Assembly: GCA_025765595.1 (NCBI GenBank) | Contig: JAIVFH010000026.1 | Coordinates: 186,001 to 250,000, forward strand | Reading direction: 5' to 3' | Length of the DNA: 64,000 nt | DNA from: Obelidium mucronatum | Taxonomy: Eukaryota > Chytridiomycota > Chytridiomycetes > Chytridiales > Chytriomycetaceae | Part shown: positions 8,516-55,521 of the stretch, piece by piece | How positions within the stretch are numbered: the first letter of the stretch is position 1 | Layout: every line of letters starts with the position of its first letter | The notes under the pieces: model-generated | What the model was told of the DNA's origin: nothing | The model's input: only the letters and a program-made list of their open reading frames with translations | The model's database searches: none | Program-made: the position numbers and the translations under genes

Positions 8516-11367
8516 ATGACATCAGGCAGTCTGGATTTTCGCAATGATTGTCTGGCGCTTCTTGCCTTGATTCCACCGGAGGAACTCTGCAGCATGGCGC
8601 CTGATCAACTCGAAGTAGTCGCCAGTGTTTGCGGGCCGCAGCTTGTAAGCCGCATTGCGGACGCCGTGCGCGCCAGCTGCCAGTCGAGTCCAAAGCCGAA
8701 GCGCGACAGCGGCGCCGACGGCAGCGCGCAGACGGCGCTGATTGCCGGCGTTGCGTGCGGCGTCGTTGTGCTCGCAGCCGTCGGCGCCCTCTTTGCGTGG
8801 CTGCGCCTGGCGCGCCGCACGCCGCAGCGCAGCGACGACGGGTTTGTGTAACCTTCTTTTTTTCTTTCTTTTTGTTTTCTCAAGCCGCATTCAGACACCC
8901 TGCGCCGCAACGCCGCGCCGACGCCGCATCGCCCGTTGTTTCGCCGCCGCTGTCGCCGCTGTCGTCGGGTGTTCCACGGACGCGCCAGCTGCTAAGCATC
9001 GCCCAGAAGCCGTCCGTGTCGTCCTTTGCAACAAGCATGGGCTCGTTTTCTCCGCCTAAACGAAACTTAACCCAAAAGGCCTCCATGGAGAGCGGGTGTG
9101 TGTCCTTCTTCGACTCTTCTTTATCTCTTAAACATTTTTTATCAGACTGTACAGTCAGTTCTCCAAAGCCACATCTTTTCGTTCGCGCGCCAACTCTCTC
9201 GTATCCAACCAACCTTCGCATATCCGTAACCTTCGCGCTGATTTATCCGTTTCTGTAAATTCCGATCCTGTCAATGTGAGTTCAAGCAACATATTATGTG
9301 GTCCCTAATCCAGTTCTATTAGAATGTATCTATCGATGGTCTTCGCTTCACATATGTTTTAGCTCTTATTGAAGAATGGGGAGGTCGTGCCGCATTGGAA
9401 GGGAAAACAACGTCTCAAGTAGGACAAGACCATATTATCGGTGTAACCTCACATTTGAGGACATCCTTCTGCGAACACCTCCAACAAGTTCCCAGATTTA
9501 TCGTTAAATGTCAGAGAAGCCAACTGGTTTGTCTCCCATGTCTGGGAGTACAAGTTCTTGGACGTTATTGATACTCTCGAGAGATTCTTTATGGCGAAAC
9601 AAATCCCACTCCACGAGGCTGTCATCTGGATTGACTTGTTCTCAATCTCCCAGAACGAATCAGATACAGAGCATAAATTTGAGTGGTGGAACAATGCGAT
9701 CCTTTCTGCTTTCAAACGCATCAAGAATGTCGTGCTGGTGTTGGAAAACTGGTTTGACCCAGTTCCTCTGAAACGGTCTTGGTGCACATATGAAATATTC
9801 TGCTCAACGATGGCTCGATCAAACTTCAACATTGCCCTCAGTGAATCGAACGAAACAGCTCTGATAAATAGTTTATACAGCGACCCGTCGATATTATACA
9901 AGAGCTTGTCCACTTTTAAATCCGAAGCTATCGAAAGCAATCGAAACTCCGCGACCAGCAAATGATCTTTAAAGTCTTGAGACATTACATTGGCTTCGTT
10001 AAATTAAATGACCTCGTTTTCACTGTATTCCGCCACTGGATCTTTGAGTTTGTTCAAGCTTCAAATCGACGATGGCCAAATGTCTTTCAATACTGAGAGT
10101 TACTTGCGGCAAGCCCAATGGCATCAAGTTAAAAGTGAATTGGTACATATCTTATAAGCTTCATTATTCTTATTTGTCATTTTGATTAACCCTGGTAATT
10201 ACTTGCCAACAGTACGAACTCCGCGAAATGTTACCAAAAGCAAAAGCCTGCTTTATCAGATTGCCTGACCCTCCGAGAAGACCACCTCGGCCTCGAGCAC
10301 CCACTGACTCTCAAAACCAAAAGCCAATTCGCTCACATCTCCTCCCAACTCGGCAAAATCGACTACGCCGAATCCACTCTCGCAGCATGCCTCTCATCAC
10401 AACGCCAAGTCATCGGCTCTTCTCACAGAGACACACTCACAACAATGTCTCGACTGGCTTTCGTTTACGGAGAACAAGATCTCATTGAGGAATCAGAAAG
10501 CCTTTACAAAGAGTGCATCCTTACTGCCTCTCAAACCTACGGAGAGGACGACCTCTTCGCCGTTTCTACAAGCCAGGACCTCGCCAACCTCTACGTCTCA
10601 TGCGATCGGTTGACTGACGCCCTTCCACTATACACCGAAACCTACACCAAACTCACCAACCTCAAAGGCCCTACAGACATCAACACCCTCTTTAGCGCAA
10701 TTGGAATCGCCGAAGTCCAATACAGTCTCGAAGAATACACTGAATCCGAAAAAGTCTACTCTGAAATCTCTGAAACAGTCGAATCAACATTCGGAGAGTC
10801 CAGCTTCCAATACGCCAAACTAAGAACCGGGTTAGCTCGCGTTTACAGAAAAACCAAGCGCTTTGATGAAGCCGTTTCTATCCTCACAGCTCCTCTCCGA
10901 ACACCAGCAGAAATCGCTCGGTCCAAACCATATTCTGACTGTCGAAACAAACGTGGCACTCGCCTCCGCGTATTGGGACCAAGGATCTGTAGACAAGGCG
11001 GAATCCCTGCTCGCCACAAGCCTCGAAAAGCAACGTTCTATTCTGGGTACCGAGGACGCAACGACTCTTGAAACCGCTTTACTTCTTAGCAGAGCTGTAC
11101 AGGAAGGGGAACCGGTTCGAGCCAGCAGAAAGCTTGACGCTTGAAGTATACAAGATACAAGGCCGGGTTTTGGGGACGGAGCATGTGGATACACTGACTA
11201 CTCAGTTGGGTCTCGCCATGTTTTACTTTGAATCCAATCGAGTTGCCTATGCACATGAACTCTTGACCGACTGTCTGACCAAGATGAAGGATGTGTTGGG
11301 GGAAACCCATAAGCTTACGATAAGGGCTGTAGAGAATTTGGCAACGGTGGAACGCGCGATGGGATGA
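8516..11367 (+). pseudogene. TIR-like/TPR membrane receptor, copy 1 (multiply frameshifted)
   Basis: Exon 1 (8516 to about 8844) encodes about 75 residues ending in DSGADGSAQT, a single membrane helix (ALIAGVACGVVVLAAVGALFAW) and a basic stop-transfer LRLARR. A Ser/Pro-rich exon follows (about 8900-9092), then one at about 9153-9276. The exon from about 9324 starts VSIDGLRFTYVLALIEEWGGR and leads into the TIR-like domain: WFVSHVWEYKFLDVIDTLERFF, AVIWIDLFSISQ, NVVLVLENWFDPVPLKRSWCTYE (Glu codon 9792-9794). Kinesin-light-chain-type TPRs fill 10130-11360. The frame is broken near 9494, 9950, 10240, 10895 and 11085, and a stop near 10095 precedes ESYLRQAQW. It is either a decayed paralogue or a victim of consensus errors; copies 2 and 3 show what the intact order would be. 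Confidence 0.6.
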
Positions 11368-11509
11368 ATTTTTTGAAAAACTCATACTCTGAGGACGGGT
11401 CTTGCATCCAAGACTTTTTTTTTCCATTTATCTTGTTTCGGATCACCCTCCACTTTTCTTAGACAATAGAGATTGACAGATATTATCATTAGCGGAAATC
11501 TCAAAAAAA

Positions 11510-13842
11510 ATGGCTACTGTTGTGCTGTTGGCACTGCTCCCACTTATCCGAGCTGATTCTTGTTCAACATACACCAGCGGATACTGCACCCCGTTCGTCA
11601 ATTATCCGATATTTGTTGCTACGGGGGGTTCCATCGCTGCCCAAGAGGCAAAGCTAAAAGCTGGAGGAATGGACCTTCTTCTCACACTGAACGCCTCTAA
11701 TCCAGCCAATCGACCATGCGTTTCCGCGTTCCTCGAGTGGGCCTGTTACACATCATACCCAAGCTGCGCCAACGGTGAGTGGCTGAACAACAACTTTTTT
11801 TTTCTGGGGGAAAAGACGCGACTCAAAATCTCTTATTGTATTTAATAGACGCCCTTCAAAATGTTCCTTGCAAATCCGTATGCGCAAACTCTGTCTCACA
11901 ATGCAAAACGCTGTTTGGCATGTTTGGAAAGACAAACTCTCTTCCAAATTGTGAGGATTCAGTTCAGGGGTTGACTGTGCCTTATGGGACAACGCCATCT
12001 TGTTTAGGATATTCTGCCAGTATGATTCCTCTTTTTTTATTCTGGACTTTTTTTTTAATAATTCTTTTTTCAAAGCACCGACGTCAAGTGATGTTGCGAA
12101 ACCAACTGGACAACCCCCGGCACCTGCTTCCTGCCCTTCGTTCTTGATTCGAAACCCCGATTATAATACAAGTAACCCCAGTCAGTCACTCACTCCAGTC
12201 TTGGGAAGGCAGTGTAATGGTCCATGGTACAGCATATGTCTTCTTTTTTTAACTGATTGACTAATATCACTCAAGTTGTGTCCCATGTCCACATGTTCAT
12301 CAGTTTTACGATCCCAATAATTTCCAGTCTCTTAATATCGCGAATCAAGTGCTTGTCGTTTTATCGTTTTGTGGATCGAGTTTCATAGTCCTATCATACC
12401 TTGTATTCCCGTCGAAAAGAGAGCATCCAGGTTTGAAAAAATCAGCAGCAGATCATACAACTTCAAATATACTTAAAAAAAAACCCGGAACTAAAATAGG
12501 CGCAATAATGTGGTTCTTCTCATTAGGCATATTCTTATACCACCTATTCCAACTCTCCATCATCGGCAGCGACGGCTACCGCGTCAGCTGCGTCGACGAA
12601 ATCACAGAATCAAAACAACAAAACAACACCCTCTGCGCAGTCCAGGCATTCATCCAGACATTCGCCGCCTTATACCTCATTTTCTGGATAAACATGTTTA
12701 TCCTAAACCTCCACCTCACAGTCGTCTGGAGAAAAGACTGGTTCACCGATAAATACGTATACTACCGCATCTTCTCCTTGATCTACGCTTTTATACCCGC
12801 CATCGGAGTCCTCGCGACGGGAAGCGGCGCCAGCATCGGATATTCATGCCTAGCAGACGTTCGGAACGTCAAAGGATTCATTTTATACCCCTATGGCCGT
12901 TTTAGGATGGCCCGGCGTCGCACTGACAATCTTTACAGTGCTTTACTTGATTCGCCTTTTATTAAGCGCTCCTGATTCCGGGAAAGCGAATTCAGCTGGG
13001 GTCAGCGTTGCTCCCGGAAGGAGTGTCCCGCCTCTGCCTCTTACTAATTTGAATTCTGGAGACAATCCAGATGGATCTACCAACAAAGTCGAAAACAACT
13101 CACTGGCACCCAAAGTCCCAGAAAATCGTAAATCAGGAACTTTTGTTATGGAGAGAGCGCCGTCAGCGAATGGTTTGGAAAAGACTGGTGGATCGTTCCA
13201 TAATATTCTGGAACGCCAAAAGTCCATCATTTCGGAAAAGGGTATCCCCATAAGTACTGGTTAGTATTTTTTTTTGGAAAGTAAGTACATCGATCCATCA
13301 GGTTAATAAATGTCTGGTTATTTTTTTTAGGTGAAAAGAGGAAACAATCAATGGCCACCTCAATCAAAACAACACAAATCGAAGAATCAGCGTCGAATAT
13401 GGCCAAAAAACTGAAACAGCACAAGGAAAAAATTTGGGCCGTTTTAATCAAGACTTGGAGATCTTTACTTCTCAGCGTTTCCATTGTTCTCATATTTGGC
13501 TCATTTTGGGTTAAGAAACTTTTTTGATTGAGTGAACGCATCGCCTTCGCCTTTCTGACTTTGACTCTTTTTATGGCCTAGACTTTTAACTTGATAGTGG
13601 CGAATACATTTATCGAGGTTGGCCCCTCAACTCCTTGGTTAGGGTCTTGGTATACTTGTGCGTTGTCGGGAAAATCTAGAGCCGAATGCGCTCAAGTAGC
13701 AGCCCCGAATATACCCCCATTTTCAAATATTGCGCTATCGAATGTGGTTTCATCTACAGGACTTTGCACATTTCTTATATTTGGAACGGGATTCATTGGT
13801 GACTGGAAGAAATTGTACCAAGAAAAAGTAATCAAAAAATAG
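11510..13842 (+). CDS. Frizzled/Smoothened-like seven-helix receptor with cysteine-rich ectodomain
   Basis: Exons 11510-11774, 11849-12019, 12076-12226, 12276-13259, 13331-13509 and 13582-13842 give about 650 residues. A signal peptide (MATVVLLALLPLIRADS) precedes a Fz-like cysteine-rich domain whose core reads CVSAFLEWACYTSYPSC...VPCKSVCANSVSQC. A second cysteine cluster (CNGPCCVPCPHVHQFYDPNNF) leads into the helices (VLVVLSFCGSSFIVLSYLVFP, IGAIMWFFSLGIFLYHLF, FAALYLIFWINMFILNLHLTVVW, YYRIFSLIYAFIPAIGVLATG, GVALTIFTVLYLIRLLL, LLLSVSIVLIFGSFW, VVSSTGLCTFLIFG). This is the class F layout known from animals and Dictyostelium. A one-base insertion near 12888-12894 breaks the frame between 'GFILYP' and 'AVLGWPG'. 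A long Ser/Pro/Asn-rich cytoplasmic loop separates helices 5 and 6. Confidence 0.78.
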
Positions 13843-13974
13843 CTTGGATCACTTAAGCTTGTTCTCTGTTTTCTTTGCACTTTTTTTCTCCTCTATATTG
13901 TCATTATGCCTTTTTGAATTAAATAAATAGACGAATGCATTTGGCTTGTGTCACGGATAAAAATCATACTGGAA

Positions 13975-15606
13975 ATGAGTCCATCATCTGACGACGTAAC
14001 CAGCTGGCACAAGGCGATGGCCAAACTGGCAACTGCAGCACCGCTGGGCAGTGGGGCACGGGGATCTGTTCCAGTCAGCCAAATGCTTGACGAAGCTGCC
14101 TTTGTGAAGATCGACAGCCACGCCATCAACACTCCCTCCAAGTGCACTGCGACTCTTGCTGCTCTTGCCCACCACTTGACTGCCCCGTTTCCCGATGAAT
14201 TGCATAAAATTAGAGCAATATTTTGCTGGGTTGCGTCTCACATTGCGTACGATTATAAAGGAGTTGAGTTTTTGAACTTACTAAAGCTACTTACGCCACA
14301 ACAACTGATCCCCCATGTCCCCATTCAGTACCTTTCTGGAGTACGAGGCCCTCAAACAGCCGAAGCTGTTTTGCGAACCCGAGTTTCTGTCTGTGAAGGA
14401 TACGCCAACCTGTTTCTCGCTCTTTGTGAACAGGCAAATTGTGGACTGAAGGCCTTCAAGATTGCTGGAGCCGCTATGGGCGTTGGTTTGGAAGCTGGAG
14501 ATCCATGCAGTTAATCTGGATGCTCACGCTTGGAATGCTGTGCTCGTTCATGGCTGAATACAGGTACTGAAAGACAAGCCCACAAACTTGTGTCTCGATC
14601 CAAGCGCTGACTGGCTTTTTTTTTCCAGGTTTATTGAAACTACGTGGGCTGCAGGGAATCTAGCAGCCGGAAAGGATTCGTGAAGCACTACTAATCCAGA
14701 GCCGTATTTCTTGGTGTCGCCAACACAATTCATTTACTCACATATTCCAAAACACGACCCAGCAAACCAGTTCCTTTCAGTTCCGCTGACTCACAAGGAA
14801 TGGATTGAGTTGCCGCATTTGGGTCCCTCTTTTCGCATCAATGGAATGCGTTTGGTTTCGGCGACAGGCCATCAGAAGTCCAACAATATGTGTTTGCTGT
14901 CGTACCTTCATATCAACAACGATTACCTTGAAATCGTTGTTGAAGTCAGTACGGCAAAGTTTGCAGCTACTGGGGGTTTGATGATGGGTCAAATCACGTA
15001 TGGAAATCTGGGTCCGATTTCGACAGTTGGTGAGCTCTGGTTACTCATCACGGTATCCTCGTCATACATGGCGCTTACAAGCTTCTTGTTCTTTTAGGAA
15101 AGTCGTTGGTCTGGGTTGATAATCCTCCCCACAAAGACTCGCTCCACGACCGAGGAGGACAAGCCATGACCATGATTGTGCATTCAACAAAATCACCAGT
15201 ACAAGGTAGAACATACTATCACTTACGTGCATATGTTCCACATGGCGAGTTGGTCGTGCGCGTAATGGCATCCATCTCACCAAGCCTCACATCATGCTAC
15301 CCGGCCCTCACATTCCGCGTCAACAACTGTGGCCCCGGAAAAGTACCACCAGCGCCAGTCATATACGCAGGATCAGTGAAACTCGTTGAACCAATCACAG
15401 GTCAACTCAAAGTTGGTGAAAAGGTGCATTTCAAGGTTCAAGGACCGCAGGAAGGTATCATCATGACTCCATGCAAGAAAATCTTAAAGTTTGTACGTGA
15501 AGGGGACTTTCAAGTTCTGGATGTGCTTATTGATTCTCACGGAGAATGGCGCGTTGGTCATGTCAATGGTCGTCAGTATTCGTTTGCTGGGTTATACAAG
15601 GCATAA
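13975..15606 (+). CDS. KY (kyphoscoliosis peptidase)/transglutaminase-like protein, frameshifted
   Basis: The N-terminal half reads through to the catalytic-cysteine motif VLRTRVSVCEGYANLF of the transglutaminase-like superfamily. The histidine motif DAHAWNAV (about 14520-14545) and RFIETTWAAGN (after the intron at 14564-14628) follow; the usual Asp of the last motif is Glu here. A beta-rich C-terminal half continues from PEPYFLVSPTQFIYSHIP through a second intron (15030-15097) to GRQYSFAGLYKA. Four single-base shifts (near 14505, 14553, 14686 and 14700) disrupt the segment around the His and Asp/Glu motifs, while about 1.4 kb on either side is clean. Family members act in cytoskeleton or cytokinesis contexts and several lack activity. 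Start ATG 13975 is the first in frame. Confidence 0.7.
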
Positions 15607-15764
15607 TTTTGTCATTTCGAGGTTAATTACAGGTCCTCTATGACACTGGGACGGGTGGAACGACAGGAACTAAGCGCATCATTTAATATAATAAAGCGAT
15701 ATGGATGTTATTCAATGTCTCTGAAACGAATGATAGTTAAGCTAAAAAGACTGCGTTGTGATCA

Positions 15765-21105: not shown

Positions 21106-24100
21106 ATGCTGTTGTCTGCTCTATCAGCTGCCCTCGTTGGCGCTCTCTCCGTAGTGCAGGCCACTCCTTCTCCAAGAGCCGCTGGCGGCAACAAAATCAT
21201 TGGATATCATGGTATGACAAAGCTCAACTTTCTGTGGATTGAAATCCATACATTGCAGATGTGCTTATGATGAACTTTGTTTGCTAGAATCTTGGTACTG
21301 GTACGACAGCGCAGGCAACCAGCCAATGCAGTGTAAGATATCTCGAATACATCACTTATCGTACATTACTTGACTCATTCGTAATAGTCACTGCGGATCT
21401 GACCAGCCGTTACACTCACATCAACTATGCCTTTGCTACTATTCATTACCACCCTGCTACCAAGCAGGTAATTTGATCATTGTCGTCATAGATTGTTCTC
21501 ATCTTGTTTTCAAGTTCTATGTTGGATTTACCGATGCTTGGGCTGACTACCAGTCTTCACCTGGAATCAGTGCACCATCCGAGTGCTTCGCTGTCCCAGC
21601 CTCTAAGCAATGTACTGGAGGAGGAGTTTCTCTTGTGCCATACATTGGTGCCAACGGAACTTGCCCCGACTCTGCCTGCTACAACCCATCTGGTGCTCCA
21701 GGATCTCCTCGTAAGCCACAGTGTGAGGCTGTATTGGATCCACAAGGTCTTCAATATGACTGGACTACAACGCCAGCATCTCCATACATTTGTGGACACT
21801 ACGCATACGTTATGAACAAAGTCAAGAAGGCAAACCCACAATTGAAATACCTTCATATCTATTGGTGGTTGGTACGACTCTAACTTGTTCTCTGCCGCTA
21901 CTGAACCCGAATACATTGACAAATTTGTAACGTCGATCGTTGAATTTGTCAAGTTTTTTGGTTTTGATGGTGTTGACTTCGACTGGGAATACCCTGGATG
22001 GGAACATGGGGGACAGCCAGCCTTCAGTGGTGGTGCTGCCGGCTCTGGAGACGCCGAGTCCATGAAGGACTGTATTAAGAACTCTTGTGCTTATCCAGGA
22101 CGTTCAAACGATAAGGCTAAATTTAATGCAATGGTCACCAAGGTCCGCGCTGGTTTGAAGGCCACTGGAAAGACATCATCTGGAAGCGATTACTTGATTT
22201 CCATGGCCGCGCCTGCCGGTTTCGATAAAATGGACAAACTCGACATCAAGACCATTTGTCAACAACTTGACTACATCAGTAAGTTGATAAGCTTCTTTTA
22301 TTGTATGTGTGCATAATTATAACTGTATATTGAACAGATATCATGACATACGATATTCACGGCGAATGGGACCCCATCACAAACCACCAAGCGGCGTTGT
22401 ACGACGATACTCCAAAAGAATACCAAGACCCAGTAGTCCCGCCGACTTCCGTCGATGCAGCTGTCAGCTACTGGATTGATAACGGATGCCCTGCGAAGCA
22501 AGTCGTTGTGGGAGTACCATTCTACGGTCATGCTTGGGGTGGTGTTGCGGAAGGCGGAAACCATGGTCTCTTCCAAAAAGGAGGTGCCCCACCATCGACT
22601 GTCACCAAGTTTAACTACGCTGATATCTCTTCTGACTCTTCTGTTGTTTCCTACTGGGATGAAAAGGCTCAGGCTAGTTATGGGTTTTCAGCTTCCAAAG
22701 GTGTCTTCTGGTCATATGACACAGCTCAAGCTATTTCTGCAAAAGTTGGATATGGCGCGCAGAAGGGGCTTGGAGGATTTATGGTCTGGCCAATTGATGG
22801 TGATGATTCCAACGGAACTTTGTTGAAGGCTTTGACAGGCGCTGGAACTCCTCCACCTCCACCACCCGCTTCATCAAAAACGACCACTACTACCACTACT
22901 ACTGTACCAACAACGACAACCACAACGACCACTACTGTGCCCACCACCACGACGACCACCACCACCACTACTGTGCCAACCACGACAACCACCACTACTA
23001 CTACTGTGCCAACCACGACCACCACCACTACCACTACTGTGCCAACCACAACCACATCTACCAGCTCAAGTACCACAACTTCAACTACCACAACAACTAA
23101 CGCTCCAACTACGACCACTTCCAGCTCTACAAAAACCACACAACCAACTCCAACTCCAACTCTCGCCGCCACCACCACCGAGGCGTCTACTCCGTGTGCT
23201 GCTGCGTTCGATTCAAAAACTATTTACGCCGATGGTGCCTTGGTCAGCTACAAGGGCCACAACTTCAAACGTTGGGTAAACCTGAACCCTGCTCCAGGTG
23301 ACACCAAGGGAGCGGGTGGATGGATTGACTTGGGTTCTTGTGCTGGTGGCGCTATTTCCACTGTTGCCGCTGCCACAACTGCTGTGGTTGCATCTACTTC
23401 TACTGATGTTGTGCTGACAACCCCAGCTGCCACCTCCACCGTTGCTGCTGCTACGACTGTGGCTGTCACTGATGCTGCTTCTTCCACGGATTCTGGGATT
23501 CTCACCACTCCCGCTGCTTCTTTGACTGCAACTGTTGCTATTGTTTCTACCACTCAAGATTCCAACGTTATCACCACTCCAGGTGCGACTTCAACCATCT
23601 TCACCGCCGTTGCTACATCTGCTCTTCCAACTGCGACCGCGACTTTTGCAACTACAGCGGTTACTGTAGTTCCATGTGCTGAGCCATTCAACGGAGCTGT
23701 GGCATACAAGGATGGAGACGTTATCAGTCGTAACGGAATTAACTACAAGAGATGGAAAAACCCCAAAGCTCTCCCAGGTGCCCCAACCGGTGGTTGGACT
23801 GCCTTGGGTCCATGTGGATTCACTACTACTGTTGTTGAGGCCACAACCGCCGCAGTTATCACAACACCAGCAATTCAAACTACATTCGTCGCTACCACTA
23901 CTGCTGCCGCTACAACTACTCAAACTACCACCACTGTAACTACTGCAGCCACTACTACTACCGTGCCAACAACGACGACCACGACTACTACAGTACCAAC
24001 CACAACCACCACAACCACGACTACGACCGTTGCACCAACCACCACAACAACGACTACTACTGCTTCCAACCACTACTACCACGACAAGCTACCACGAAGA

Positions 24101-25531
24101 GCACCACGACAACTACTACAACGCAAGCTCCAATGACGACCACTGTCTCTGGACCTGGCTCTGGCTTGCCAGCGTGTTACTCTTTGTGGTCCGCCACTCA
24201 ACCTTACCCTGTCAACTCTAAGGTTACTGTTAACAAAGTTAACTACAACGCTGCCTGGTATCAAGCTGTCGGATCCAGTCCTGTTGACAACAAAGATGGT
24301 GGATGGAAGTCTCTTGGAGCCTGTGACGAAAGCTTGCCAACAGCTGTCGACCCCAACGGCCCACCACCTGTCCCATCTACTTTGGCGCAGCACCGTGCTT
24401 ATGCTGCGTCAAAGTCAACTGACCCTGTCTTGGTCAGACTCAGAAACTCTGTCCGCACAAACACCAAAGTCGACAACATCTACCCAGGAAACCCAGAGAA
24501 CCCAGAAAACGTGAAGCGTGTTGAAAGAATTGTCACTCCATACAAGTGGAATGTCACTTACTTTTCCATGGCTGACCCTGCCTACACTTACCCCAACTTC
24601 CTTAAGTCTGTTGGTTGGTTTGCCGGTTTCTGTGATACCTACCCAGGAAAGGATTCCGATGTTATCTGCAAGAAGTTGTTGGCCACTATGTTTGCCCACT
24701 TTGCTCAAGAGACTGGTGGTCACAGCAAATTGGTTCCAATTGCTGAATGGCAACAGTCCCTTGTCTACTTGCGTGAAATGACTTGTGAAGAGACCAACAC
24801 TATCTCTGGATGCGCGTACAACAACGACTGTACCAACCCAGCTTTCAACAAGGTCTTCCCATGTGCTCCAGGAAACAACAACGGTTTCAAGTCATACTTT
24901 GGACGTGGTGCCCACCAACTTTCATGTAAGTAGCTTACCCTTCCACATCAACAAAATGGCATCCTAATTATTATCCTATTTTTTAGACTCTTTCAACTAC
25001 GGTCCATTTTCTCAAGCTATCTACGGAACCCCACTTACCTTGCTCAACAACCCAGAGTTGGTTGCCGACACCTGGTTGAACTTGGCCTCCGCCATCTTCT
25101 TCTTCATCTACCCACAACCACCCAAGCCATCCATGCTCTGGGTTATGGACGGATCTTTCGAGCCAAACGCTGCTGATGTCGCTGCTGGTCGTGGAAACGA
25201 CTTCGCTGCTACCATCCAAATCATCAATGGAGAATGCGGTGGTTCTTCCCTCTCCAATGCCGCCAGCAACCGTATCAACTTCTACAAGGCGTTCATGAAC
25301 GACATGGGTTTGGAAACATCACCAGCTGACGCCAAGTGTACCGGAATGACTCCATTCGACAGTGCTGGTACTGCTGCCGCCACCAACATGTACTGGACTG
25401 CTTCCTACAACGGAACTCCAGTCTGCCAGTTGGTTAACTACCAAACCAACTTCAACGCGTTGTTGGATGGACCAAACTACGACCAGTACACCAAGTGTGT
25501 TGAGTTCTCATTCAACACAAAGCTGGCTTAA
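21106..25531 (+). CDS. Secreted GH18 - CBM5/12 (x3) - GH19 fused chitinase
   Basis: Exons 21106-21211, 21288-21332, 21388-21467, 21515-22279, 22338-24925 and 24987-25531 give about 1,380 residues. In order: a signal peptide (MLLSALSAALVGALSVVQA); a GH18 domain with the SxGG strand and the catalytic FDGVDFDWEYPG (DxxDxDxE); a Thr-rich linker; a CBM5/12-like chitin-binding module (YADGALVSYKGHNFKRW...GGWIDLGSC); a second (YKDGDVISRNGINYKRW...GGWTALGPC); another Thr linker; a third (VNSKVTVNKVNYNAAWY...GGWKSLGAC); then a GH19 domain with AHFAQETGG (catalytic Glu) and SYFGRGAHQLSYSFNYGPFSQ. GH18 retains and GH19 inverts the anomeric carbon; both cut chitin. One-base shifts near 21852-21856 and in the linker near 24070-24105 break the frame. 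Role inferred: wall remodelling or digestion of chitinous substrates. Confidence 0.85.
22872..23130 (+). repeat. ACN-trinucleotide tract coding the first Thr-rich linker
   Basis: Imperfect ACC/ACG/ACA/ACT repeats encode runs of Thr interrupted by regularly spaced VPTT blocks, between the GH18 domain and the first chitin-binding module. Such linkers are usually O-glycosylated. The antisense strand is also open, giving Val-rich frames that are an artefact of the repeat. Confidence 0.8.
23920..24125 (+). repeat. ACN-trinucleotide tract coding the Thr-rich linker before the third CBM
   Basis: This is the same kind of Thr-coding repeat, with two VPTTTTTTT blocks, in front of the third chitin-binding module. 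The reading frame slips here twice (near 24070-24105), as expected for either replication slippage or sequencing error in a low-complexity tract. Confidence 0.75.
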
Positions 25532-28355: not shown

Positions 28356-28399
<44 letters not shown>

Positions 28400-37486: not shown

Positions 37487-39965
37487 TTAAACACAAGAAA
37501 CACCAAGGGCAGTCTCGTTGTCTCCTCGGTTCAAGTAGTATGAACAGTCATAGTCATTGTACGAAGCTCCAGGGTAACAGTAGTAGTCAAATGGAACATT
37601 GTCAGTGTTTGGGTTCAAGGCCCAGAACGTGGTGAACGAGATTCCAGCCACAGACAAGAAGGAGATGATCAAAGACACGATACCAGCACTTCCATCAAAG
37701 GCGGCTCCCAAAACGTACAAGTACTTTTGGTAGAATTCTCTGTTCTTGAGGAACAAGTATTGGGTGGTGAATGTCAAAATGAGTGGCATGATGATAACGA
37801 CTTGGTAGGCTCCGGCGTTACCACAGGTGAAGATGATGGCAAAGTTGATGTAGTGCCAGTACTTTGACTTGACAATGAACTTGTTGGCCAACCATGGAAG
37901 CAATGGAGCGGTAGCACCAATCAGGAAGCACCAGAGGAGACCTTCGTAGAGAGATCCGATACCAAAGAATCTTTGTGGTCCAATAGCTCCCCAGATACCT
38001 CCAGCAGAGTAGAAGGTTTGGTGACCATTGTATCTCCATTCTGGCTTTTGCAAGAGGTCATTGGTGTTGTACACCATGTAGAAAGTAGCAGCGGTAGAAA
38101 TGATGGCATTTAGGAAAGTTCCATAAAACTGGCAGAAAACCATGGCGTATGGTGGAATGTGCAAGTATTGACCGAGCTTCAAGTCTTGGGTCAAAGTCAA
38201 AGCTTGAGACAAGGAGTTGGTACCCCAAGACTTGAAGGCCATGACAGCAACAGTTTGTCCTGGAATCATCAACCCAATGACGAATTCAGTCAAAACGTTC
38301 AAGTAGAGGTAGAAACCACTGATGGCTGGAACGATTCCGAATGGCAAGATGAAGATCAAACAGATAAACAAATTGAAGAAGATAGCCCACCATGGCATGT
38401 TGAATGGAGTAACGAGGGAGACAATGATGGCACCAGCAGAAGCGACAGCCAAGAAGGCGAGGTAAGCCCAGTCAGGAACATCTGGGTAGGCTTCCATCAT
38501 CTTGACGTGCTTGTCCAAACCATCTACTTCATCTCTAACTTGTCTGAAAGCGTTCATGGATTGACGGTAAATGTCTTTTCCATACCAAAGAGCAACGTGG
38601 GAGAGGGCGGCGGTAATGGTAGCGAAAGAAGCACCGTAGACCAAAGCAAAGTGGGCAGTAAGACGGACTGGGGCGACATCGTTGTAAGCAGTCAAGTTAA
38701 GATCATAGTTGGCAGACTTGTTGTAAAAGTAGTTTGGCTTAACACGGGATCCGTACTTCTTGGTACCGTTCTTGTTACCGACAAACAATCCTGGAGAGTT
38801 GGCAGTTGGGTTACCGAGCGCATCCTTTCCAATGACCAAGTTGTCTCCCCAGACATCGTTTGACCAGAGAATTGGAGTAATCAAGTACTGGAAGAAGGCG
38901 GTTCCACCGAGGAACATGAGCATGGCCCAGAATGGAGATGTGAAGACGTAAGAACCCAAGAAAGTCCAATCAAAAGTCAAACCGAGGAAACCCATTCCCT
39001 TGACGGCTGAACCAGCAATAACGTTGAAGTGGCTCAAGACTCCTGATTTACCGTTTCCGCGTCCAGCAATCAAACAACCCAAAGAAATGGTTTGGAGAAC
39101 TGGGGCAAAGTATTCTGGAATCCACATGTAAACGAACATGGCAATGAAAGCAACCCAGAAAAAGCGGTATCGCGTCATGGTGTATTTCTGGACTCCTTCG
39201 AATTCAGTGAGATCCGTCTTGTGGAAAGATGTGAACAAGGCAATGGTGGAGAGGGTAGATGGCCACCACATGGCGGTTGGGCGAACCAAGAAACGACGAG
39301 TCAAACCAGAGAGACCGTAACCCAAGAATTGCGTTACAATAACGAATCCAAGGGCTTGGAAGTACGTAATATCGGTGTTTCCCATCAAGTCTGGCATCAT
39401 CTGAGAGACAACGTTCTCGATACCGTATGGTTGACCACCACAGGAAGCAACAATGTAGATGAGAACGTGCTCCTTAAGAGAAAATGGTCCTGGGTTAAGG
39501 ATTCCAGCCGGTAGAGCAGCTGCCATAAGAAGACCCAATGGGTAGGTCAAAATAAGGGCGACACTGGCACCAACGGAGAAAGCGTTGGTACGGAATGACA
39601 ATGCAGTGTTGGCAAATGAGAGGAGAACGACCTGTGTAGATTATTTTTAGAATCGGTGACCCAAAAACTTGTACGCCCAAGCAACATACCCAGAAGGTTC
39701 CCAAGAACACGGATCTGAAAGTAAATGCTGGAGTGTTTGGGTCATCGGATTGAGGCACAATGAAGTCACTGATTTCAAAAATGAGTGGTTGAGTCAGTTC
39801 CAAAAACAAGCCAAAGCACCGCCAAACGCAACCATCCACTCACATCCGCTCCATCACATCTCGGATATCTTCGACTTCGGTGTCTTCTTCAAGCTCAGGG
39901 TGGGCGGCCACCAAGTCCTGGACTTCCTTCTCCTTGTCCGCAATGTCTCGCTCGACTGTGGTCAT
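37487..39965 (-). CDS. Oligopeptide transporter (OPT family)
   Basis: Exons complement(39844-39965, 39690-39768, 37487-39631) encode 781 residues. A short acidic cytoplasmic N-terminus (MTTVERDIADKEKEVQDL) precedes SDDPNTPAFTFRSVFLGTFW, the OPT opening. Hallmarks follow: NPGPFSLKEH, the helix run SGLTRRFLVRPTAMWWPSTL, HFNVIAG, GQYLHIPPYAMVFCQFYGT (the IPP motif) and IWGAIGPQRFFG. About 14-16 hydrophobic helices are visible, the usual number. The family moves tetra- to pentapeptides or metal chelates into the cell with protons. The frame is intact, so this gene is a useful reference for consensus quality. Confidence 0.92.
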
Positions 39966-47438: not shown

Positions 47439-48368
47439 CTATACTTTGCCATGCTGCACAAGATTCACCACCGTTAACCTTGCATTCAACCTTTCCACCT
47501 TTTCCCTATGCAACGCGACCTTCATTTTGAAAAGCACCAAAAACGTGGCCGTCGAAGTCAAAATCAACAAACAATCCCAAATCTCTTCCTCCAACAACGA
47601 ATACACCAAAACAAACGCCAAAACCGCCAAGAATATACACGCTGACGCGACTCCGTGTGTAGCAATGATATGGAACTGCTTATCAGGCTCCTCATACGCA
47701 GATCCCTTTGTCCGTTGTAGGTACCTTACAAACGCATACAAGCACGCAAGATCCACAACTAATACGGAAACCCCATTGACTATATACATGTTTACAGACG
47801 CGCGGCTTAATGACAGTGATACTTCAGTATCAGTAAAGGCGATCCCGCAACTGACAAAACGCGTGATTACATTCGCAAGAAACAGATACTTGCAGTGTTT
47901 GGTATAAAACGATATATATGGATTGATTTTCGGGAGGATGTCATCTAAGATATGCTCTGCGCGCAGATAGCTGTATTGGACATATGTGTATTCAAACAGA
48001 ACTGCTCCCATCACCCGGAAAGAAAGCGCGATCGATGCGTTCCACATTGGATTCTGAATCAAAGGTAGCAGATATCCAACTTCAGACCAGCTCATCAGGT
48101 TCTGAGAGACTCCCATCATTAATAGATTCGAGTTGAAGGGTGTGAAGACGTTTTCAATTGTCACAGACTTGTTTAGCTGGACAAGCTGTATTCTGAATAT
48201 GAAGTAGAGGAGTGCTGAAAGGACGCAGGATGTGCAGATTCCGATCGTGACGGCAATAGTGGCTTCTCCAGGGATTGGGAGCATTTTCCCCGACGAGGTT
48301 GAAGGCAAGGTTCGAACGAAAACTGTGTAAATCTTAGCATCCGCTGGTCGCCACTCGTTTTTTTGCAT
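47439..48368 (-). CDS. Seven-helix membrane protein, copy A (intact)
   Basis: A single exon of 309 residues. Seven hydrophobic segments can be counted: TIAVTIGICTSCVLSALLYFIF, LLMMGVSQNLMSWSEVGYLLPLI, ALSFRVMGAVLFEYTYVQYSYL, YLFLANVITRFVSCGIAF, YIVNGVSVLVVDLACLYAFV, VASACIFLAVLAFVLVYSLL and IWDCLLILTSTATFLVLFKM. The tail is short and basic (LHREKVERLNARLTVVNL). The helix count and size fit a receptor-like protein, but no known GPCR class motif is seen, and there is no retinal-lysine signature. A tandem paralogue lies immediately upstream (48485-49441). Start ATG 48366-48368 is used; the internal Met in GKMLPIPG is an alternative. Confidence 0.7.
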   Translation of the reverse strand: MQKNEWRPADAKIYTVFVRTLPSTSSGKMLPIPGEATIAVTIGICTSCVLSALLYFIFRIQLVQLNKSVTIENVFTPFNSNLLMMGVSQNLMSWSEVGYLLPLIQNPMWNASIALSFRVMGAVLFEYTYVQYSYLRAEHILDDILPKINPYISFYTKHCKYLFLANVITRFVSCGIAFTDTEVSLSLSRASVNMYIVNGVSVLVVDLACLYAFVRYLQRTKGSAYEEPDKQFHIIATHGVASACIFLAVLAFVLVYSLLEEEIWDCLLILTSTATFLVLFKMKVALHREKVERLNARLTVVNLVQHGKV

Positions 48369-48484
48369 ACATCAAAACGCAGTAAAGCATTCAGCATTCA
48401 GCATTATTAAACTTGTCTTGGGTTAAGAGTATGCCACTTTGGCATTTCACAGGGGTCTTCCCAGTCAGAAATATATTTTTTTAA

Positions 48485-49441
48485 TCAAACGTGATCTTTT
48501 GGACGATGAAGATTCACAACCGTCAACCTCGCATTCATTCTTTCCATTTTTTCTCTATGCAGCTCCACCTTCATTTTGAATAGCACCAAGAATGTTGCCG
48601 TTGAACACATGATACACAAACAATCCCAAAACTCATCTACCAAAAGTGAGTAAACAAGTCCGAAAGTAAGTGCCGCCAACAGAGTAATAGAAGAAGGTAA
48701 TTCCATAGATTGAAATGATGCGAAACTGTTTATCTGTTTCATCGTCATCGGATTCCTTGGTTTGCCGCAAGAAGGTCACAAACGCGTACAAACACACAAG
48801 ATCTACTCCCAAAACCAAGACTCCATTGAAAATAGAAATGTAGATGGACGCTTTGTTCAAGTGGAAGGCAACGTCTGGGACTGTTGCAGGCCAATCCGGA
48901 ACCAATGAACCGAGTCAAGACATTGACAATGAATAAATACTTGACGTGTTTTAAAAAGAAGGAAATGTAAGGGTTTGTGTTGGGAATTATGTCATCCAAG
49001 ATATGTTCAGCTCTTAGGTAACTGTATTGGACGTACGAATATTCAAACACCACACCGCCAGTTACCCGAAATCCCAAACGCGACTGAAGTGTTGAGCACT
49101 TGGTCTGAGATGCGTGGCATAAGCAGGCCGACTTCGGCCCATGTTAACAATAACTGAGAACACGCCATCATGGTGAGGTATTTGTTGAATGGCGTAAACA
49201 CGTTCTTGATTGTAACTTTCTTGTTGAGCTGAATCAGCTGCACTTTGAAGATGAAGTAAATCAAGGCAATCAGCGCTATGCTTGCGCCAACACCCAGGGC
49301 AGTGGCCACGTAGACTTCGTATGGGATGGATTCCATATATTCCCCCACTTCACTTTTTTCCTTTCGTGACAATTCCAGAAAATCGAAAATCTCGGCACCG
49401 CGCAAAAAACACAACCTCTTTTTGGCCGACTGATGTTCCAC
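48485..49441 (-). pseudogene. Seven-helix membrane protein, copy B (frameshifted)
   Basis: This is a tandem duplicate of copy A with closely matching segments: VTIKNVFTPFNKYLTMMACSQLLLTWAEVG, EYSYVQYSYLRAEHILDDIIPNTNPYISFF, VLVLGVDLVCLYAFVTFLRQTKESDDDETDKQF and CSTATFLVLFKMKVELHREKMERMNARLTVVNL. The frame changes near 49065, 48900 and 48690, so no single product is encoded as read. It may be a true pseudogene beside its intact parent or an intact gene with consensus errors; the flanking intact copy A shows that the region is not uniformly poor. Confidence 0.6.
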
Positions 49442-49695
49442 AGTTTAAACCCGCCAAGCCTCCTTGGCACAAAAACATATTCTTGAAAAAAAGAAAAAGA
49501 AAATTATTTGAAAGGACCACTTGAGGAAATCACACCAACTACGGACCCATGATAACTGCAATGCGATCAAGATTGTCTGTGAATTTAGACTCCAGACAGG
49601 ATATTGAAGTATTAAGCGACCGCAAGCTGAGACGGAACTCTTCGTTCTTCTCTTCGCTGAGTGATCCAACAAACAAGCAGCTATCATTTAAGGCA

Positions 49696-51894
49696 ATGGC
49701 ACCTAAACTGTAAGTACCTCATATCCTTCTTGTCGCCCTTATCGCCGTATCAGTCTCTAACAGTAACAATCACTCTGAACACTACAGCAGAGCTCGATCA
49801 TCCTCTTCTTCTGGCGGCTCAATGCTTGGCCCCCGTCAAGCTTCACGCCCTGCATTGACCAATCTAAACTCAAATAGTCATTTCAGGCTTCGATCAGTTG
49901 AAGAAGAAGTAGAGCCGCTGAACGATGGCATCCGCTTTACAGCCGTAATTTCCCTAATTCAAGACTGGGGCGGTCGCGATGTTCTTTTCGGAAAGACAAC
50001 CGCTGAAGTGTGTCACACTTACATTCTGCCAATGACCACTGAAACTTCGTCATCAGTCTGTGATGTGCTTCGCGCTTCTCCTGCCACTTCACAGAATGTG
50101 CGACTGCCAAACTGGTACGTCTCTCACGTATGGTCTTACAACTTTATTGATGTTGTGGATACGCTGGAGAGATTCTTTACTGCCAACCACATTCCGTTGC
50201 ATGAAGCTGTTATTTGGTTCGATGTCTTTTGCATTCCTCAAGTTGCCACTGTGGCTGGTGCCTCGCAAGATAACGAAGTCCGATCAATCAAGGTGGATTT
50301 ATGGAAGCAAACCATATCATCCGTGAAAAAGTGTAAAAACATGGTTCTTATCGTGGACTCGTGGTCCGACCCTACTCCTTTGAAGCGCATTTGGTGCATT
50401 CTGGAAATGTTTTGTGCCTCCTCCAGTCACGCGAATTTCCAAATTGCAATTCTTGGAAATGAAGAAGCACCCTTTACTCAAAGTCTGTTGGCAGACTCTT
50501 CAGACGCCTACAGCCATTTGTCCTACTTCCGAGCTGAATATGGTGTCGCCACCAATGCTCGCGACCATCAACTGATTAACAAGGCTCTTCAGCATCGGCT
50601 CGAATTCTCCAAACTCAGTGCTGTTATCGTGAAATTGTTCCGAAACTGGCTACTGGATTTCGTGGAACAGCAATTAGTCAAGTCATCAGTAATACCCTCC
50701 GTTGAAGACAATATACAAGAGGCGCAATGGCACTTTACAAAGAGCCAACTACTAGATCTGAACGAAATGCCCGCTGCGTCAAGAGAAGCTATCTCTGAGT
50801 GCTTGAATCTTCGAGAAATGTGCCTTGGGCAAGATCATCCAGAGACTCTGAAGGCCAGGAGCCAGTTCGCCTATGCTTCCAGCCAGATTGGCGACAACCA
50901 ATTCGCAGACTTGATTCTCCAGTCGTGCTTTCAATCACAGCTAGAAATTCTTGGACAAACGCATATCGACACTTTGACTTCAATGAGCCGTTTAGCCTTT
51001 GTTCATGGGCAGCAATATCTATTCGAACGCGCCGAAGAATTGTATAAAGAGTGCATCTCTTTTGCTAGCGAAGCCTTTGCGGAATCCGACAAGTTTCTTC
51101 TCACGACACGTCAACAACTAGCAAACCTCTACCTCGCCAACCATCGATACCAACAAGCCCTCGACCTCTACTCCCAAACACACAAAACGGCAGTGGCCAG
51201 TTTAGGAGGACTCTCAAAGCCAACACTCTTAAGCGCCATTGGAATCGCCGAAACCCAATGCCTCCTCTCCCGCTACATTGAATCCGAAACTGGCTACCTC
51301 GAGTTAACCGAATCAACACAAGACATTTTCGGAGAGCACAGCGCTCAGTACTGGAAAACTCAAACCGGCTTGGCCTTGATTTACAAGGAAACAAACCGAC
51401 TGTTTGAAGCATGCGAGATTCTTTCAACCCTTGTACACACCCAACAACGAACAATCGGACCAAATCATCCCGTTTCTCTTGAAACCAATGTTCTTCTTGC
51501 TCTTGTTTATTTGGCGCAAGGTAACGGAAAGGGGGAACCGTTGCTCTTGTCGTCGCTCTCGTGACAACGGGGGATTCTTGGGAACGAAAATCCATCCACA
51601 TTATTTTCAATGAAAAGTTTAGCGGAGCTTTATTTAAAAGAGGGGCGCTATGAGGAAGCCAAGTTGTTGTTGACAGAGTGTTTTCAGATCCAGGTGCGGA
51701 ATATGGGGAAAGATCATGTGGAAACACTGGTGACAGGTATGAAGCTCGCGGAAGTATATTCCCAGATGGGTGATGTAGAATATGGTAAAGATGTATGGAA
51801 TGAGTGTCGAGAAAAATTGACAGGAAGTTTTGGGGGAGAATCATCCGTTGTTGATGGAACGATTTGTGATGATTGGGGATACCCCCTCTTTTAA
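49696..51894 (+). pseudogene. TIR-like/TPR protein, copy 2 (soluble form; stop plus late frameshift)
   Basis: A 14-nt first exon (49696-49709, MAPKL) splices to 49788 and gives MAPKLRARSSSSSGGSMLGPRQ, so this copy lacks the membrane exon of copies 1 and 3. The linker NDGIRFTAVISLIQDWGGRDVLFGKTTAEVCHTYILP precedes the TIR-like domain: WYVSHVWSYNFIDVVDTLERFF, AVIWFDVFCIPQ, NMVLIVDSWSDPTPLKRIWCILE (Glu codon 50404-50406). TPRs of the kinesin-light-chain type follow (ISECLNLREMCLGQDHPETLKARSQFAYA...). An in-frame TGA at 51562-51564 replaces the residues seen as GK or EK in the other copies; the same frame continues QRGILGNENPSTLF. A one-base insertion in a G run near 51835 then shifts the last codons. 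Confidence 0.7.
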
Positions 51895-52235
51895 GTTCTT
51901 GATAATAAACACCTTCAGTTTTGTATATTCACAACAACGGTCTAAATCTGTGTGCGGCCAAATGTCACCGTATGACGCCAGCCCCATTTATTGCCCAGGG
52001 TCGGGGTTCAGAACACCATTCACCGAATTCACAACAACACCCTCCAGATATTTTTCCAACTTATTACTGGAACAAGTGTCAAAGAAATAGTACCGACCGC
52101 TTTCCGGGTGTTTCATTATTTACTAAGGTATTGACCCCCTTTCTTTAAGAATCGTTGAAACACTCCACAATGTTCTTTTTTGACGTTGAAAAATTCAATT
52201 GGGCTTGACGGTCAAGTTGAAAATTGCTCTAAAAA
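51895..52235. other. Intergenic region between TIR-like/TPR copies 2 and 3
   Basis: This 341-bp gap holds the 3' flank of copy 2 and the promoter of copy 3. No gene, repeat boundary or RNA was recognised. Confidence 0.4.
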
Positions 52236-55200
52236 ATGACACCAATACCCATAGCACCCCGCCTGAACGCATCAATGGCCACAGCTATCGAATACTTGAC
52301 TAAGCTAACAGGCAAAGAAGCCGCCAATCTATGCGCTCCGAATGCAATGGCTGCTCTTGAGCAAGCGACTCTCGCGCTGCCTGACGATACGCAAAGAGCC
52401 CAACTGCTTAACCTTCTAGCCCAAGTTATCAGCTACTGTCACTCTGCGGATGTTACCACCTCGCAAGACAGCTCCATCAAGCTCCAGCGACGGAATGTTA
52501 ACTGGAACTCAACGTGGCTTGCCCCATCAGAACCACCACCGCTACCAGCGCATGCAACAATCACAGCGCAACTTGCGCTCGGTGCTGCAATATTCATCGC
52601 AGTAATAGGGGTCGTAAAGTGGTTTACGTCAAAGCGAAAGGTTCCAACAAGGTCAGTTCAAGAGCAACCCGGAACCCAAAATGCCCAGAAAAATTCTTAC
52701 TCATATGATTTTTGATATTGAAACACCCTTCCCCCGTCTCCATCCAACAGCACTAGTGAAGCTTCTAGTTCTTCCACATCTGTGTCAGTTAGGACAAGTA
52801 CAACGTTGCGACCGTCCTCCACCGCTCAGAGGGATCATGAGGCTCCAACTTCTCCAAACCTGTTACAGTCTTTGCTAACTAGGTCCGCCAGTATGAAACC
52901 AAAGAGTAACAGGTACTTTTAAGTCACATAACTCGAAAAATCCCAACACGAACCGCCTCACTCAAATTTTTTTGTTTAGAACCAACTCTCCATCTCTCAC
53001 ACTCAGAGCATCAACGAAACCGCCCTCTCTCGCCAGCAGAGGAACCTCAAAATCCGAATCCCCTCTTCCAAAAAACTCTCCACATTTAAAACCACTCAAG
53101 AAGAGCGATGGGATCCGCTTCACATATATCTAGGCCCTTCCCCGGTTCGGGCTGAACCGTCGGTTTAAACCGAACCGTTTGACTTACTTAATAAACCGTG
53201 GGTTTGGTTCTGATAACGGTTTGAGCCGCAAACCGAACCGAACCGAACTGTTCCAAACCGGTTTATAGAACGGTTCACAATTACCCGAAGAAATGACCCG
53301 ATCACAGAAAAAATAACTATAAATAGGGACAAAAATATCTAAACAGTTACAAAAAAGTTCTCCAAAAAGAGAACTCATGAGATCTGACCTTTAATACACA
53401 AGTAATCTACTTTTTTTTGTAAGTCACTTGTTACCATTTGCCTTAAGTTCTTACTCTATATTCTCAGATACTAGGTAAATGCACAAGTAATTCGGCCTGT
53501 CAATTAATTATTCCCGAAGACATGTTTATGTATCAATTACTGTTTTATTATTTTAATAAACATAAACTGTTACTGAACCGCGACTCCAACCGCGGGTTCA
53601 GACTCTTAAGCGGTTCCAAACCGCGGGTTCAATTTTTAAACGGTTTGAACCGTAAACCGACCCGAACCGAACCGGGGAAGCCCCTACATATATCCTCTCC
53701 CTCATTCAAGAATGGGGCGGTCGCTCTGCACTCGCTGGGAAAACCACGACTCAAGTCTGTGAAGATTTTATCTTGCCAATGACACTCGCCACCAAAATTT
53801 CCGTTTGCGATTCGTTGCTGCTTTGTCAGGATCCAGAATCTCAGAACAACGTCAAAGACCCAAGTTGGTTTATATCGCATGTCTGGGAAGAATACATGTT
53901 TCTCGATGTGATTGACACGTTGGAAAGGTTTTTTATGGACCGGCAGATTCCATTACATGAAGCTGTGGTTTGGTTTGATGTGTTTTCGGTTTCTCAGCAC
54001 CATCGACATGAGGAACAGGATTTCCGCGACTTTGGGTGGTGGAATAATCATGTCCTGGAATCGGTCAAGCAATGCAAAAATTTCGTGCTTGTTGTGAAAG
54101 ACTGGGAGGATCCAGTTCCACTGAAACGCTCCTGGTGCACGATGGAATTGTTCTATGCGTCCAAGAGTCGCCTGAATATTCACGTTGCAATGAATCAACA
54201 AGATGAATCGGTTTTAATTCAACAGTTGTGGACAGACTCCTCAAAAGTCTTGGCCAAGTTTTCTGGATTCAATTTTAAAAATTGTGTAGCAACACACCAA
54301 AAGGATCAACAAATGATTTCAAAGATCTTGTCCCACCGAATTGAGACTGCGAAACTCAACAATTTGATTTCAAACTTGCTCAAGAACTGGTTACGTGTCT
54401 TTGTTGACCAACAGATCTCCAGAGTGCCGATTATGGCCAAGGAAGCTGACCTGGAGCGCCTTTCCAAGTGGTACGAGGTGCTGAGCCAGCTATTCGAACA
54501 TGTCGATTCTTCTTCGTCCTTAAAGAATAGTATCGACGCGCTCTCCGAGTGTCTCGAGATTCGCGAGGACAGTTTCGGACACAACCATCCCGACACGTTG
54601 CGAACACGGAGCCATTTGGCATTTCTCTCAATCGAATACGAAGATATTCAGTTCGCGGGTTCCACGCTCTCATCGTGCCTGGAATTGCAGAGACAAGTGT
54701 TGGGGACACATCACGCCGATACCTTATTGACAATGGCTCGATTGGCGCATGTATATTCAAGCAATCGCATGTTTCAGGAATCCGAAGTTCTGTATTTGGA
54801 GTGCATTGGGGCTAGCTCCTCACCAGAAGGATTTGCTGTCGCAGATTTCAATGTCGGTTTACTTCTTGAACTCGCTCATCTATACCTTTCCCATCGGCAA
54901 TACAACAGCGCTTTGGACCGATTCACTCAAGCTCTCGGAATATGCATGGAGCGATTCGGCGACTATCACGAGACTACCTTAGAAGCCTCGTTGGGGCTTG
55001 CAGAAACATTCTTCAAGTTGAACCAAGTTTCCGACGCCAAAGATATTTATACGGCAATCTCTGAAACGGTTCGGCAAGTATTCGGAGAACCGAGTCGCCA
55101 CTACGCACAGACCCGGATCGGTCTCGCCACCATCTTGATACAACAAGGCTGCCTACGTCAATCAGAAGCCATCTTGACGCATCTTTTGACTGTCCAACAG

Positions 55201-55521
55201 CAAAGCTTAGGACCCAACCACAGATTGACTTTGAAAACAAATGCGCATCTCGCATCGATTTTTATGGAGAAGGGTGAAGACGAAGCAGCAAGGGCTGAGA
55301 TGATTCTCGCCACAACTTTGGGTAAACAACGCGCGCTGTTTGGCCATTCCCATCAAGATACGCTTGAAACATTGTATTCCCTCGCAATTCTGTTGGATAG
55401 GAAGGACCGAACAGCGGAAGCAAAGTTGTTGTACGAAGAGTTGTATCGGCACCGCGTGGATGAGTTTGGTGTTGATCATCCAGATACGATATCGATTTTG
55501 AACGTTCTAGAGAGACGGTAG
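52236..55521 (+). pseudogene. TIR-like/TPR membrane receptor, copy 3 (split by a MITE; otherwise intact)
   Basis: Exons 52236-52651, 52751-52912 and 52980-55521. Exon 1 encodes about 105 residues with four cysteine/Ala-rich helices, then a membrane helix (LALGAAIFIAVIGVVKWF) and basic SKRK. Exon 2 is a Ser-rich juxtamembrane linker. Exon 3 begins RTNSPSLTLRAST and reaches SDGIRFTYI, where a 556-bp element interrupts it with an immediate TAG. Beyond the element the frame resumes LSLIQEWGGRSALAGKTT, the TIR-like domain (WFISHVWEEYMFLDVIDTLERFF, AVVWFDVFSVSQ, NFVLVVKDWEDPVPLKRSWCTME; Glu codon 54145-54147) and about nine TPRs to LERR-stop. Without the element the frame would be continuous for about 850 codons. 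The downstream part could still be translated from the ATG at 53779. Confidence 0.78.
53131..53686. mobile_element. Non-autonomous hAT-like MITE (556 bp)
   Basis: The element is flanked by a perfect 8-bp target duplication CATATATC (53123-53130 and 53687-53694). Its ends are near-perfect inverted repeats, TAGGSSCTTCCCCGGTTCGG (19 of 21 positions match). Both subterminal regions are filled with repeated AACCG/CGGTT units, including the palindrome CGGTTTAAACCG at 53161-53172, as expected for transposase-binding arrays. The centre is AT-rich and non-coding. The 8-bp duplication and TA/CAGG-type end indicate the hAT superfamily; there is no transposase, so it moves in trans. Confidence 0.9.

Follow-up and report, generated by a model that had tools for sequence, protein, structure and literature searches.

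A TIR-like/TPR protein family in the chytrid Obelidium mucronatum

The window analysed here, a stretch of 64,000 nucleotides (C26:186001-250000) from the chytrid Obelidium mucronatum (Chytriomycetaceae), contains three copies of a gene family in which a predicted TIR-like domain, bearing a glutamate in a W-x3-E motif, precedes an array of tetratricopeptide repeats (TPRs). In our judgement the chances are about even that this family is an uncatalogued eukaryotic branch of the TIR superfamily, devoid of the core of nucleotide-binding leucine-rich repeat (NLR) receptors, whose domain would be an NAD-type enzyme activated by clustering and controlled by the TPRs. An earlier reading made from the letters of the window alone (the sequence-only reading) had proposed such an architecture in a fungus, and the source is indeed fungal. 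The three copies and their parts are as follows.

8516..11367, plus strand: copy 1; the public model P0007 (BDR26DRAFT_894726) spans its first part; at least four frame changes
8738..8804, plus strand: transmembrane segment of copy 1, Kyte-Doolittle 2.63 over 19 residues
9337..10070, plus strand: predicted TIR-like domain of copy 1, broken into pieces and with its end placed approximately; the codon of the W-x3-E glutamate is at 9792-9794
10214..11367, plus strand: TPR region of copy 1, in successive frames 3, 1 and 2
49696..51894, plus strand: copy 2; the public model P0050 (BDR26DRAFT_819699), 596 residues, terminates at an in-frame TGA at 51562-51564
49924..50730, plus strand: predicted TIR-like domain of copy 2, end approximate; glutamate codon at 50404-50406
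50731..51894, plus strand: TPR array of copy 2, interrupted by the TGA at 51562-51564; Pfam TPR_12 matches both before and after it
52236..55521, plus strand: copy 3; the public model P0001 (BDR26DRAFT_283640), 665 residues, is without the membrane exon
52236..52651, plus strand: candidate N-terminal exon of copy 3, with one transmembrane segment at about 52560-52628, Kyte-Doolittle 2.37
53107..53130, plus strand: first domain motif of copy 3, DGIRFTYI, upstream of the insertion
53131..53686, plus strand: hAT-like non-autonomous element of 556 bp within copy 3
53687..54468, plus strand: predicted TIR-like domain of copy 3, modelled from 53689-54468; glutamate codon at 54145-54147
54541..55518, plus strand: TPR array of copy 3, eight repeats of about 42 residues, from Pfam and repeat spacing

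In all three copies a serine-rich linker is followed by a domain of about 260 residues and then by 42-residue TPRs, as the sequence-only reading had claimed, and each domain starts with DG.RFT and then WGGR...GKTT. Matches to relatives from the chytrid Siphonaria, obtained with tblastn, lie far beyond chance: copy 1 is matched in frame-shifted pieces at 39-68% identity, copy 2 is 44% identical to Siphonaria P0002 across 49912-51795, and copy 3 is 44% identical to the Siphonaria relatives across 53662-55494. The assignment of the repeats to the kinesin-light-chain type also held, with Pfam TPR_12 present in pieces of copy 1 (E 6.8e-25), copy 2 (E 1.6e-18) and copy 3 (E 2.6e-31), and with successive repeats of copy 3 spaced by 42, 45, 40, 42, 42, 44 and 42 residues.

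Upstream of the domain, copies 1 and 3 each have one strongly hydrophobic segment with basic residues after it, an arrangement from which the positive-inside rule would predict a cytosolic domain and TPR array. The earlier claim that these two copies carry a membrane segment stands as far as the segments themselves go. For copy 1, P0007 (400 residues) joins the segment and the domain in a single protein, and for copy 3 the junction is putative: the candidate N-terminal exon resembles residues 12-127 of Siphonaria P0002 (E 7e-6) and could be joined to the rest through any of several in-phase GT-AG pairs, and P0001 starts downstream of it. A single public model of P0002 includes all the parts, from N-terminal helices and membrane segment through the linker to the domain and TPRs, so the architecture seen in Obelidium was not created by the way in which genes were joined. 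An upstream segment over threshold was found in 6 of 137 family proteins (P0002, P0007 and four others) by a scan that omits models without the upstream exon, such as P0001. No NB-ARC or NACHT core was found by Pfam scan in the window copies, in P0002 or in the long open frame of a further Obelidium member on contig C272.

Predicted fold of the domain

The domain is predicted to have the TIR/nucleoside deoxyribosyltransferase fold. A structure prediction, which the sequence-only reading had named beforehand as the refuting test of its TIR-like assignment, came out in favour of it: the AlphaFold model of the copy 3 domain (predicted local distance difference test 91.1, predicted template modelling score 0.88) shows the alpha/beta arrangement of TIR domains. 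The claim of five strands survived in part, as the fold is TIR-like but the core model shows four strands. A model of the full-length relative P0002 contains the domain and nine TPR-like helix pairs at high confidence; five strand segments are seen in its domain, with the additional strand at the N terminus rather than in the place of the canonical fifth strand at the C terminus.

Structural comparisons point in the same direction. The top 40 Foldseek matches in the PDB are all TIR proteins, headed by SARM1 and then RPP1, RPS4 and SNC1; the best E-value is 1.6e-3 (SARM1), so none of the 40 reaches 0.001. With VIA-align, 49 of the 50 rows shown are TIR or nucleoside deoxyribosyltransferase proteins, including ThsB and two SPARTA rows that we take to be such although their titles do not mention TIR, and the remaining row is a conserved protein. 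In BFVD, a TIR/WD40 protein from an algal virus ranks first (E 5.9e-4).

The best PDB match of the family profile is the Paracoccus TIR protein PdTIR (3h16), over FISHAW...W-D-F, at a non-significant E of 0.37. The Pfam family most often weakly matched is TIR_2, hit by 4 of 15 members with E 0.01 at best, and no curated TIR profile was matched above its cut-off, two TIR_2 scores being 15.3 and 13.5 bits against a cut-off of 28; for the domain of copy 3, no Pfam model reaches its threshold. Profile-profile comparison with a local TIR_2 set gave a probability of 1.5% and a P-value of 0.033 from alignments that are too shallow. Single-sequence PDB searches were uninformative, one of them matching designed TPR proteins at a meaningless E of 0.18, and a PADLOC search of 15 members returned a single AbiEi match (E 0.017) that led nowhere.

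A conserved glutamate at the catalytic position of TIR enzymes

The W-x3-E glutamate is E in 140 of 140 aligned domain copies, and the counts for the other signature residues are W 139/141, R 142/142 and Q 142/142, in an alignment of 143 domain copies from 137 proteins that is biased to relatives of the queries. In the copy 3 model this glutamate lies in helix 148-159, after the third core strand, and motif and modelled helix both agree with the place of the catalytic glutamate behind strand C in TIR domains. Identical W-x3-E motifs are present in the solved TIR domains of Roq1 (WCLEEL) and PdTIR (WPQKEL). Self-association is described as increasing TIR activity, and SARM1 and the prokaryotic TIRs considered in the same passages require this glutamate (PMC7282519). 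The motif is kept at 16 of 16 Obelidium loci, including those where other signature residues are gone: the invariant R is lost at all three loci on contig C105, part of SH.W at C77 and one C105 locus, and the Q at C97.

The resemblance to the TIR NADases SARM1, plant TNL TIRs and PdTIR extends from the predicted fold and the W-x3-E glutamate to a FISHAW-like first strand. The family's domain differs from them in falling below the Pfam TIR cut-off, in beginning with an additional helical stretch in which GG and TT are conserved, in its N-terminal strand and invariant Q and R, and in that no NLR or SAM core was found with it.

Copies in the Obelidium genome and lesions in the window

The copy 3 domain matches 22 stretches of the Obelidium genome, at 16 loci. 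Loci in which the stretches compared are 94-98% identical were merged, which left 10 groups: copy 1; copy 2; copy 3 with C398; C272/C50; C77/C186; C9/C227; C97/C235/C290; and three on C105. The several variable copies anticipated by the sequence-only reading are thus present.

In all three window copies a disabling or shortening lesion is present, and the possibility that they are undamaged genes was ruled out by frame changes, an in-frame TGA and a 556-bp insertion. Copy 1 reads as a decayed pseudogene: comparison with the Siphonaria relatives by tblastn locates frame shifts near 9481-9501, 9926-9941, 10900 and 11090, and the P0007 model spans the first frame change and stops just past the second. 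Beyond the TGA of copy 2, homology continues in the unchanged frame to about 51852 and the frame stays open to 51894.

The element within copy 3 has imperfect terminal inverted repeats, TAGG..CTTCCCCGGTTCGG, and is flanked by an 8-bp duplication, CATATATC, at 53123-53130 and 53687-53694; hAT elements typically have TAGG ends and 8-bp duplications. A full copy (99%) is present at C50:126539-127095, and on contigs C8 and C394 the two ends mark the limits of stretches of about 3 kb. Over the 9.9 kb compared, contig C398 runs colinear with the window, with 94-96% identity, and since the element is missing from the counterpart of copy 3 on this haplotig, one haplotype apparently carries the insertion. 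The C398 counterpart has an unbroken frame of 688 residues, and its membrane exon shifts frame. The public model P0001 reads as though the element were missing; our guess is that it was perhaps built on transcripts of the other haplotype.

The C272 gene has an upstream membrane exon, a possible 93-base GT-AG intron and a frame of 829 codons through domain and TPRs, and no lesion was seen in it. Between copy 3 and C398, omega is 0.07 in the domain and 0.12 in the TPRs; between C272 and C50 it is 0 in the domain (from just 4 synonymous changes) and 0.12 in the TPRs. These values point to purifying selection between haplotypes on the domain, slightly weaker on the TPRs. Taken jointly with the enzyme proposal, and with the same even confidence, we suggest birth-and-death evolution of the family, in which copy 1 decayed, copy 2 was truncated and copy 3 was split by a transposon on one haplotype.

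In a tree of the domain, copy 1 groups with Siphonaria P0003 and P0004 (support 0.95); a second group, with support 0.96, unites copies 2, 3 and C272 with P0002 and P0005. Both lineages thus seem to predate the divergence of Obelidium and Siphonaria. Midpoint rooting was uninformative, as 137 of the 138 tips then descend from the last common ancestor of the 12 chytrid ones.

Distribution of the family

The domain of a metagenome protein, P0054, finds 407 proteins at E <= 1e-3. The organisms named among the 120 of these matches that were listed are the diatoms Chaetoceros and Seminavis and one chrysophyte, and precomputed domains place TPRs in many of the listed proteins. Two other searches yielded chytrid members from Siphonaria, Chytriomyces and Rhizophlyctis. 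The diatom and chrysophyte members rule out a family confined to chytrids. Of the transmembrane-TIR-TPR architecture described in the sequence-only reading, the order of parts holds, but domain and TPRs together also occur outside Obelidium, and few members showed a membrane segment. Two-pattern scans of contigs gave 29 viral-contig and 21 prokaryotic matches, among which no close viral or prokaryotic relative was confirmed, and such scans may miss distant ones.

Fusions of the family domain with other modules occur in P0058, P0126, P0087 and P0163: the Rhizophlyctis member is named as an inositol 5-phosphatase fusion, and the others involve a PH domain (confirmed) and, from precomputed domains, thioredoxin and a ubiquitin-conjugating enzyme.

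Proposed function and alternative explanations

If the family is enzymatic, the TIR-like domain, placed directly before a TPR superhelix of the kinesin-light-chain/nephrocystin-3 type, would be held in the cytosol with the TPRs by a membrane anchor and long linker in some Obelidium and Siphonaria members. The TPR array would bind a ligand or partner, and the anchored molecules would cluster through anchoring and repeats. The clustered domains may then use the W-x3-E glutamate, whose position is seen in the alignment and model, to cleave NAD+ or a similar nucleotide, and the cleavage may yield a death or stress signal. A more specific version, which we hold only tentatively and think rather unlikely in full, is that these are NLR-core-free TIR-superfamily receptors of chytrids and stramenopiles that bridge TIR and HET, some of them anchored, and that they signal death in chytrids, possibly with the metacaspase cluster described below.

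The alternative that survives best, though we still consider it somewhat unlikely, is that the family belongs to HET (PF06985), the cell-death domain of fungi, as its chytrid and algal part, with a divergent form of that domain. The two have in common three similar motif blocks, a fungal setting and kinship with TIR: HET domains of the local genome read SHVWG / LWVDFFSIDQ / RIWTLQE where the family reads SHVWE / WFDVFSVSQ / RSWCTME. Dyrka et al. 2014 list HET relatives in stramenopiles, haptophytes and others and have PdTIR in the two best HET hits (PMC4986451), and the same PdTIR ranks first for the family profile, as given above. Against this, no scanned member matches the Pfam HET profile, also in a search to E 10 whose filters drop most weak matches; the family profile and the local HETs gave a 12-column match (probability 3%, P-value 0.015), from a shallow alignment of 8 loci; and the genome has separate, true HET domains in nine places. 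The family may nevertheless be part of the HET relatives of the 2014 survey (PMC4986451), and such an overlap would make it less new. In the table of a 2025 review, the row for the HET domain reads 'ND, ND' (PMC12881547).

It is improbable, in our view, that the TIR-fold domain is a non-enzymatic adaptor that assembles homotypically and recruits partners, with the TPRs as scaffold. Animal TIR domains such as those of MyD88 and TRIF do act as adaptors, and MyD88 chains are found in the VIA-align rows and TRIF in the Foldseek rows. An adaptor would not need the glutamate, however, and its invariance, even where paralogs have lost other signature residues, counts against this explanation.

Equally improbable is a housekeeping role, perhaps in cilia or transport and outside immunity, for proteins built like nephrocystin-3 (DUF4062 and TPRs) or kinesin light chain. 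Chytrid zoospores are flagellated, the nephrocystin-3 TPR model scores 67 bits on copy 3 and 72 bits on P0002 (cut-off 100), and 'Kinesin light chain 3' is the public name of some members. Such names originate in the shared 42-residue TPR type, to which the chytrid proteins add a TIR-like domain ahead. Pennate diatoms are not known to bear flagella, yet the pennate Seminavis robusta has a member (P0160), and copies that vary and decay within a genome would be unlike ciliary core genes. A 2026 preprint describes DUF4062 as a family of TIR-like NADases, recognised by fold and a conserved glutamate and then by assays, and its account covers TEP1, NPHP3 and bacterial Swarozyc, in which a distant TIR-like domain is combined with other modules (PMC13174449). 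The scanned chytrid-family members have no DUF4062 (PF13271) match, and no NACHT was found. That the enzyme is no NADase but resembles nucleoside deoxyribosyltransferases, with nucleosides or nucleotides as substrates, is very unlikely given that the top 40 Foldseek matches are all TIRs and the FISHAW and W-x3-E motifs are TIR-like.

Other proteins combine similar parts. TPR arrays related to those of the chytrid family occur in FxSxx-COOH/NB-ARC-TPR and fungal NLR proteins, some with TIR_2, but the NB-ARC or NACHT of those proteins was not found here. Mollusc proteins likewise unite TIR and TPRs, their domains being designated TIR; the term TIR-TPR is used for them in oyster and Aplysia papers, in the legend to a figure and in a list of abbreviations (PMC4346834, PMC9334734). 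We saw no published description of the chytrid/diatom TIR-like TPR family among the open-licence texts searched. The 2014 survey, in its account of chytrids, reports no NLRs in those examined (PMC4986451). The TIR-like-TPR proteins of chytrids and diatoms are candidates for immune-type signalling in early fungi and a possible link between TIR and HET.

Neighbourhood and other features

Caspase-domain matches start at window positions 57256, 59031 and 60394, the first 1.7 kb downstream of copy 3. Contig C26 carries 8 of the 18 Peptidase_C14 matches in the genome and its haplotig C398 another 5. None of the ten other family-bearing contigs has a caspase-domain match (0/10), so the adjacency of family and metacaspases amounts to one locus and may be chance. 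A WW-like stretch is visible by eye ahead of the caspase part in the cluster. Features outside the three copies are:

57256-61340 (C26:243256-254844 and 274838): tandem metacaspase-type cluster, Pfam Peptidase_C14
22343-24133: GH18 chitinase with CBM5/12
5600-6805 and 37490-39601 (minus strand): leucine-rich repeat protein with a weak F-box match, and OPT oligopeptide transporter

Elsewhere in the Obelidium genome, the HET-domain frames, some near-identical, match PF06985 at E <= 2.3e-4, and TIR_2 has 37 matches at E <= 10, 23 of them individually over the cut-off. One divergent family member, P0036, reads LSYTWG...WICCLCVNQ and looks intermediate between the TIR-like TPR family and HET.
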